A DNA stretch of 64,000 nucleotides, from positions 13,647,986-13,711,985 of the forward strand of contig OY482846.1 in assembly GCA_960531495.1 (NCBI GenBank), given 5' to 3'. The stretch comes from Zeus faber. Its lineage: Eukaryota; Chordata; Actinopteri; Zeiformes; Zeidae. Shown here one piece after another: positions 39,601 through 42,600 of the stretch. Position 1 is the stretch's first letter, and every line of letters begins with the position of its first letter. The translations under genes were made by a program, and so were the position numbers. The notes beneath the pieces are model-generated. The model worked only from the letters and a program-made list of their open reading frames with translations. It was not told the DNA's origin and ran no database searches.

Positions 39601-42600
39601 TGAAGCCTTTTATAAAGACAAATAGTCCCTGCTGGTTTCTAGTGAAAATGTATTATTCATTATTAGGGTTTTTGGTCCTTTTTTAATTCTGTGAAATATG
39701 TTCCAAAATTCTTAGATGAGAACATTTAAGATATTTATCAAAGACAACACATCTCTTTGTGAAATATTGAAATGTACTTTTAAAAAATATAAAAGGTACA
39801 AAATCAAGAGAACTTAGATTATTGATTATAGAGACGATTATAACCAATAGCACAACAATTCTCAACCACTGTAATTTTTGTAATAGATAAAGCATTAAGT
39901 GATACTACAAGTTAACTTTTTTGTCTCTATGCAGGATGGACTAAGTTTGCCAGGTTGACACGCGCTCTAACCAACAACCGGCAGCTCGCACAACAGCTAA
40001 CTCCATTGAGCAAACCAGAGGCGAGCCACAAACACTCCAGATTGGCCGAGGTGAGCAGGAAATTGGGCTTGTGTTGATACCCTAATATTTATCACCCCAG
40101 GACTGTGAATATTTTAGAATTTTGATTGTAGTTCTTAAAAAACAGATTGACAGAAATGTAAAGGAAAGGAATCCTTACATACATGCAGCTCTGTGACCAC
40201 CAAAGCTTCAAAATTCTGCCCGAGAGCTATTAAAATTCTCTTTATTTCCCACCTGAAGGCACTCCAGCTGGGGTCGGACATCCTCCCGCCGTACAAGCAG
40301 GAAGCCCCCAAGACGCCTCCCCACATCATCCTCCACTACTGCACCTTCAAGACCACGTGGGACTGGGTCATCCTCATACTCACCTTCTACACGGCCATTA
40401 TGGTGCCCTACAACGTCTCCTTCAAGACCAAGCAGAACAACCTGGCCTGGCTGGTGGTGGACAGCGTGGTGGACGTCATCTTCCTCATCGACATCGTGCT
40501 CAACTTCCACACCACCTTCGTCGGTCCGTCCGGGGAGGTCATTTCGGACGCCAAGCTGATTCGGATGAACTACCTGAAGACCTGGTTCGTCATCGACCTG
40601 CTGTCCTGTCTGCCCTACGACATCATCAACGCCTTTGAACATATAGAGGAGGTAAAGCAACTGGAGTTTGTTTGCTGAGTTGATTGTTGCCATTTTAAGG
40701 CCCAATCCATAAGGCCCGGACATTCAAATCAGAATGGCTTTTATAAAGTAGAATGAAAGAAAGAAAGTATAATAATATAATAAATAATATAATTAACATG
40801 CTGTAATACTTACATTTATTTTCCTGTGTCTTTGTGTAGGACCACATTGTAGGTTCCTCACCAACAAGTCACCTACGAGACTCGCATTTCCACAGGAACA
40901 CCACACGTGTAGAGGACTCAGTATTACCGGTAAATAAACAAAATGTGTTAAATGGCTTAATTCACATGCTTAAACTGCAGTTTTCAGCAGTGACAACTCA
41001 ATTTGAAATCAATCTGAAATCATATTGATTCATATTAAGACCGTATTAATCATGAATCATGTTTAAACAGTAACAGCACAATCAAGAATTATAGTATTTG
41101 AGATAAGATATTCTTCGATTTTGAATCTTATAGAGAGCTTTAGGAACTGTGCGCTTATCTCAAACTCTTGGGAGCAGAGAAAGGGTACTCTGTGGAACCT
41201 TAATTGTTTAAAATGATTAAAAATACCTGTGGCATACAAAAAAATATATATTTCATGAATCCCAAACCCCTATTTTTTTATCACTTTGCCCTTCAGGGAA
41301 TCCGTAGACTTCCTGCCTGCTCGCAATAACAACTTCAATGTTTCTGTAGTGAGTTGATATTATTTCTAAACTCCATCTTGTTTTCCTTCCTTCCAAAGGG
41401 TCTGAGTAGCCTGTTCAGCTCCCTGAAGGTGATCCGACTGCTGCGTCTGGGCCGCGTGGCCCGGAAGCTGGACCACTACCTGGAGTACGGGGCGGCCGTG
41501 CTGCTGCTGCTTGTGTGCGTGTTCGGCCTGGTGGCCCACTGGCTGGCCTGCATCTGGTACAGCATCGGCGACTACGAGGTGATCGACGAGCTCACCAACA
41601 CCATCAGGACGGACAGCTGGCTGTATCAACTGGCCGTCAGCATGGGCACGCCGTACCGCTACAACGTGAGTGGCACGGGCCAATGGGAGGGCGGGCCCAA
41701 CAAGGACACGCTCTACATCTCCTCACTCTACTTTACCATGACCAGCCTCACCACCATCGGCTTCGGCAACATCGCCCCCACCACGGACGGCGAGAAGATC
41801 TTCTCCGTGGCCATGATGATGGTGGGCTGTAAGTGAAGCTTTCCAGTTATCCCCCTGCCAGTGGTGGAAAGTAGCAAGCACTTAAGTTCCTTTATCAAGT
41901 TTCTGTGCTCACTTAAGTATATTCCGTTACTCAACTGCATTTCTAAAACAGTTGTTCATTTAGTTTAAAAGAATCTGGGGCTGGATCTATCTACCTGATC
42001 ATAGAGGATTCACTAGGTTCACATCCTTGAAAATGACTGTGCCAACACCTATACTATTTTTTTGTAAATTATAATCAGCATATGCATGAACACTAATGTG
42101 CAGAAAGAAAAGCTATAGTAACACTTTATCATATATTATAGACTCTGTATCAGGGCTTTGGACATGACATGTACTTTTACTTTCAATACTTTAAGTACAT
42201 TTATGAGAACAAACTTATAAACGTCTACTTAAGTAGAAGTGTCATCGTGGTACTTTCACTTTTCCGAGATTCATTTTGTGTCAGGGTATTTGTACTTTTC
42301 CTTAAGTTTAAAGGTAGCATACTTCTTCCACCAATGGCTCCTGCTACGATGCAGTTGTCTTTGTCTCAAAGTGGAAGGTGTTGAGAGAAAGTTCTAATGC
42401 TTCATTTCACAATCACCACCCATTTCCAAAAGCACATAATACTTTTTAAGTTATATGCTGTATGGATTTCGGTAATGCAGCTTCCCAAACTATCTGAATC
42501 ATATCCGTTTTGGAAGCAGTGTGGACCGATGCTGTTGGATAGCATTAAAGTTATCGTTACTTGTCCTGCCATGGAGTGGTGGCGCAGCGGGAGAGACAAA

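Follow-up and report, generated by a model that had tools for sequence, protein, structure and literature searches.

A candidate 90-nt cassette exon in the S3–S4 intron of a fish kcnh5 gene

The kcnh5 locus and its candidate segment

The window, the whole 64,000-nt stretch of DNA analyzed here, corresponds to positions 13,647,986–13,711,985 of contig C2 in an 803-Mb assembly of 153 contigs, and it carries a kcnh5 gene on its + strand. Neighboring genes occupy the intervals 4600–9900, 18188–18544, 30900–34720, 56200–56750, and 62860–63700. Of these neighbors, vsx2 and abcd4 were recognized by eye, as were sgpp1 (with a PAP2 match under the curated cut-off) and the 3′ end of a daam1-like formin (with an FH2 match under the cut-off), and l3hypdh was assigned to the proline racemase family at 167.8 bits. 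Two Tc1/mariner-like transposase remnants, at 21590–22314 and ~57230–58270, were picked out by eye from the open reading frame lists. The features of kcnh5 considered here are as follows.

40259..40651, + strand: upstream kcnh5 exon encoding S1–S3, C-terminal end INAFEHIEE; both kcnh1-like genes have copies at 90% identity
40820..40839, + strand: pyrimidine tract and acceptor of the candidate, tttcctgtgtctttgtgtag; score 6.1, third best acceptor within the intron
40840..40929, + strand: candidate cassette exon; 90 nt, phase 0/0, open frame, 30-residue peptide
40896..40929, + strand: alternative 34-nt frameshifting exon with internal acceptor ttccacag; acceptor score 9.1, same donor
40930..40935, + strand: donor of the candidate at the ccg/gtaaat boundary; score 6.5, best donor within the intron
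41399..41824, + strand: downstream kcnh5 exon encoding S4–S6; best PDB match KCNH5 (7yid), E 1.7e-80

The S4–S6 exon, searched as 426 bases of an exon that extends a few bases further, is nearer in the PDB to KCNH5 (7yid, 270.9 bits) than to KCNH1 (255.5 bits). A 747-nt intron separates it (start 41399) from the S1–S3 exon (end 40651). The original prediction placed in this intron an open 90-nt segment with phase 0 at both ends, and both its coordinates and its 30-residue frame are confirmed. The segment is preceded by AG and succeeded by GT. The two flanking exons also join in frame without it, as had been claimed, such that the reading frame survives both inclusion and skipping, and the peptide does contain four histidines and one N-T-T sequon. 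An open frame, symmetric phase, and an acceptor with a donor, as a cassette exon should have, are therefore all present in the candidate.

In an alignment of four PDB chains, KCNH5 chain 7yid and three KCNH1 chains, ENVDE is followed immediately by GISS with zero residues between; skipping of the candidate would therefore yield the ordinary protein. The short S3–S4 loop of the PDB KCNH5 chain is what would be expected if the candidate were a chance pseudo-exon, that is, an open frame surrounded by consensus-like sites that few if any transcripts include, with the short loop alone being made. We give this explanation somewhat less than an even chance, and the evidence on both sides of it is taken up below.

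Splice sites

Splice-site scores come from a vertebrate weight matrix, on which the acceptor of the S4–S6 exon scores 9.1 and the donor of the S1–S3 exon 6.6. The donor of the candidate (6.5) is the best in the intron and has an A at +5. Its acceptor (6.1) is surpassed by two others in the intron, one of 10.6 at 41297 and one of 9.1 at 40896, inside the candidate itself. The earlier description of the splice sites as strong is thus too generous, because the acceptor ranks third and a stronger one lies within the segment. The moderate acceptor, the A at donor +5, and the better acceptor inside all fit a pseudo-exon. For a real exon, partial inclusion is to be expected, given a moderate acceptor in competition with the internal one. 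In both flanks of the candidate, TGCATG motifs are absent (0 upstream, 0 downstream) and YCAY motifs (2 upstream, 8 downstream) form no notable cluster.

The internal acceptor raises a further explanation, in which the 34-nt frameshifting exon at 40896–40929 would be the true splicing event, a poison exon, with the 90-nt frame being incidental. This version shares its donor with the candidate and has the better acceptor (9.1 at 40896 versus 6.1 at 40840), and its joined frame reaches a stop at codon index 145, about 14 codons past the junction at 131. However, exon definition ordinarily works on exons longer than 34 nt, and we consider a poison exon at this position highly unlikely.

Codon usage

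The codon choice of the candidate is intron-like. Its synonymous codon score is −0.43 per codon compared with a median of +0.21 for 90-mers from kcnh5 itself (n = 149, overlapping and scored leave-one-exon-out); 148 of these real 90-mers outscore it and 1 is as low. The comparison holds for the hydrophilic C-terminal exon alone, which has a median of −0.03 and in which 67 of 68 90-mers score higher than the candidate and 1 is as low. Among 1,621 intronic open 90-mers, 64% have a synonymous score at least equal to that of the candidate. The codons that chiefly lower its score are GTA (three times), TCA (twice), TTA, ACA, and ATT. On the total codon score, 62% of 12,823 intronic open frames match or beat the candidate, whereas none of kcnh5's own 90-mers is as low.

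This intron-like codon choice favors a pseudo-exon. When the intronic frames are matched for GC, however, 340 of 341 equal or exceed the candidate on the synonymous score and 69% of 2,328 do so on the total score. Because the candidate is low even against these frames, its codon usage counts more strongly against an exon with a long coding history than for a pseudo-exon. The coding-like codon use that would mark an old cassette exon, though not a young one, is not found, a pattern to be expected of an exon that is young or weakly used.

Chance expectation and GC content

To gauge how readily such a segment arises, pseudo-exons were defined as phase-0 open segments of 51–180 nt between paired acceptor and donor sites. 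The candidate is the sole phase-0 segment of its intron to pass, at thresholds equal to its own scores as well as at 4/4, 5/5, and 3/3, and five other intron stretches of kcnh5 (8,240 nt) hold no passing segment at 5/5. Of 4000 dinucleotide shuffles of the intron, 23 contained a passing pseudo-exon and none contained one with GC ≥ 0.5. Real DNA yields more passing segments than these shuffles. Across the window there are 9 on the + strand and 11 on the − strand, of which 5 of 20, counting the candidate, lie outside the coding exons recognized by eye (exons of kcnh5, vsx2, sgpp1, and abcd4 or their antisense); about 0.02–0.03 are therefore expected per 747 nt. Over the window, C13 (the contig of a kcnh5 duplicate described below), and other loci, comparable segments outside exons recognized by eye number ~0.03–0.06 per kb and strand, a frequency that lends support to a pseudo-exon.

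The base composition of the candidate argues in the other direction. Its GC content is 50% as compared with 31% and 33% in the two flanking parts of the intron, and the top 90-nt GC windows of the intron are an 11-way tie with starts at 40823–40842, on the candidate; a GC of 50% is reached by 12% of all 90-mers in kcnh5 introns. A GC-excess criterion of 15 points above the 200-nt flanks, which was chosen after the candidate had been seen, leaves, in addition to the candidate, about 2 sites beyond recognized exons, C13 50097–50162 of the joined stretch and L011 at 2869. The 447,350 strand-bases in which these 2 were found comprise the window, C13, and other loci, which partly overlap, and the scan of the other loci left out L001, L002, L026, and L014–L025 and dropped repeated peptides. 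From this frequency, the expectation is ~0.3% for this intron and ~4% for the ~9 kb of kcnh5 introns examined. By the post hoc criterion, then, such segments are rare, and the shuffles at GC ≥ 0.5 agree on their rarity, both of which speak against a pseudo-exon. The likelihood of such a segment arising by chance is low but not negligible.

Origin of the segment

The only match of the candidate in the 803-Mb genome is itself, both as DNA and as protein (E up to 10). It is therefore not a recognizable repeat copy, and exonization of a transposable element is rejected as far as these searches reach.

The genome has three further EAG-type genes, on C13, C16, and C4. By the best PDB match of the pore exon, the C13 gene is a kcnh5 duplicate (153.7 bits for KCNH5 versus 140.7 for KCNH1), the C4 gene is kcnh1-like (122.9 bits for KCNH1 versus 114.2), and so, more narrowly, is the C16 gene (141.0 versus 136.7 bits). 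A retained copy of the candidate was found in none of them, as far as their introns could be read. In the kcnh1-like genes, the frame past the S3 exon stops after 22 codons (C16) and 9 codons (C4), and their S3–S4 introns (5,239 and 427 nt) contain neither a passing exon nor a recognizable KCNH1 insert. In the C13 duplicate, the visible 5,812 nt of the corresponding intron likewise contain no passing exon. The readable part of this intron is limited to that length because a 5-kb run of N lies at C13 ~1,462,500–1,467,500, the expected position of the duplicate's S1–S3 exon; this exon was not found there, and a whole-genome search gave no kcnh5-like copy except that of the window among the matches listed. 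The teleost duplication occurred some 300 million years ago, and a small exon in the C13 duplicate could have diverged past recognition since then. Scans for the adjacent exon in viral_contigs and genome_contigs matched 2 and 17 stretches, none of them a relative.

The original prediction offered two origins for the segment, a cassette predating the split of KCNH1 and KCNH5 that was retained in fish kcnh5, or an independent gain. In favor of an ancient cassette, the 27-residue KCNH1 insert lies at the same junction, before GLSS/GISS, and is similar in length. However, blastp of the candidate peptide against the KCNH1 insert gave no hit; the kcnh1-like genes stop after 22 and 9 codons and have no passing exon in this intron; and the four aligned KCNH1 and KCNH5 PDB chains lack an insert. 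Neither similarity to the KCNH1 insert nor a counterpart in the kcnh1-like genes of the same genome was thus detected, and the visible C13 intron adds none, which makes a shared ancestral cassette unlikely. The KCNH1 insert moreover appears to have a different architecture. It presumably starts V-S, residues that GTNAGY, a donor where the exon ends, could encode, so the insert probably arises from an alternative donor that lengthens the upstream exon and is not a cassette of its own. An ancient S3–S4 cassette is accordingly the part of the prediction that finds no support, and we consider it very unlikely. Independent origin fits better than a shared cassette, conditional on the candidate being a real exon at all.

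A candidate extension of the S3–S4 loop

We tentatively regard the candidate as a real, lineage-specific cassette of independent intronic origin, probably with low inclusion, a reading that we place just short of an even chance. A real low-inclusion cassette and a chance pseudo-exon are about equally likely, and the weights given here to the four readings are judgments, not computed values. In favor of a real cassette are the uniqueness of the segment in its intron, its GC content, its lack of repeat copies, a channel frame that is open with or without it, and the tolerance of KCNH1 for an insert at this point; its codon choice, the stronger acceptor at 40896, the absence of TGCATG from both flanks, and the lack of a counterpart in three paralogue introns, one of them partly visible, weigh against it. 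If the candidate is real, the S3–S4 intron of this fish kcnh5 would have gained an acceptor and a donor that together enclose an open segment of 90 nt, richer in GC than its surroundings. We infer that the segment would be spliced into part of the mRNA, and its inclusion by the spliceosome would encode an S3–S4 extracellular loop enlarged by 30 hydrophilic residues, while its skipping would produce ordinary KCNH5. The extracellular position of the peptide is predicted from the known EAG fold.

The closest known system is the long isoform Kv10.1b of the paralogous KCNH1 (Kv10.1, EAG1), which has an S3–S4 insert (PMC5358448) that is similar in length, optional, and in frame, like the candidate. 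The two differ in that the candidate has no detected sequence similarity to the Kv10.1b insert, which probably derives from an alternative donor. Kv10.1b is a known mammalian transcript, whereas the fish kcnh5 candidate is known from genomic sequence alone, and the Kv10.1b insert was found in neither of the two kcnh1-like genes of this fish. KCNH5 (Kv10.2) itself, as represented by PDB 7yid, the best PDB match of the S4–S6 exon, has no residues between ENVDE and GISS. Among the matches listed in a literature search of titles and abstract beginnings, with subscription journals mostly outside its coverage, there was no report of an S3–S4 exon in KCNH5. PMC13398235 reports that zebrafish has kcnh5a and kcnh5b, ascribes the pair to the genome duplication of teleosts, and finds both expressed in retina; words beginning with "splic", "exon", or "intron" are absent from its main text.

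Published work on KCNH1 indicates that the channel tolerates an insert between S3 and S4 (PMC9369319, PMC5358448), that an insert of 27 or 28 residues leaves function nearly unchanged, the long form behaving much like the short (PMC9369319, PMC5358448, PMC4683259), and that a disease mutation acts alike in both forms (PMC12931077). A prudent expectation for the included candidate would be a mild effect on voltage-sensor movement and gating. That its histidines and sequon might alter gating, glycosylation, or metal or pH sensitivity, as suggested originally, is speculation. A broader proposal, which we put forward as unlikely, is that this fish lineage has evolved an optional S3–S4 exon of its own in kcnh5, with an origin independent of the KCNH1 insert, such that the two vertebrate EAG channels would separately vary the same extracellular spot at the voltage sensor, and that the His-rich, potentially glycosylated loop could tune gating by pH or metal. 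If real, the candidate would bring to two the independent instances in which an EAG-family channel optionally lengthens its S3–S4 loop, and would make this loop a repeated target of splicing. If it is not real, it shows how easily a consensus-flanked open intron segment passes for an exon.

Apparent intron turnover in the EAG genes

The exon structures of the four EAG genes differ at a further point. A phase-2 intron in a Trp codon is present in the C13 kcnh5 duplicate (L014) and in the C16 kcnh1-like gene (L015) and is absent from the kcnh5 of the window (41399–41824) and from the C4 kcnh1-like gene (L016). This distribution points to intron turnover at the Trp-codon site. The C4 gene (L016, reverse complement 8776–9322) has another intron 22 nt beyond that site, in phase 0 after DYE, with the boundaries GAG/GTGACC...CTAG/GTGATA. 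Within it, at 8915–8989, is a degenerate partial copy of the end of the preceding exon, LAAHWLACISFSTRDHEV, and the intron looks to have been gained through tandem duplication.
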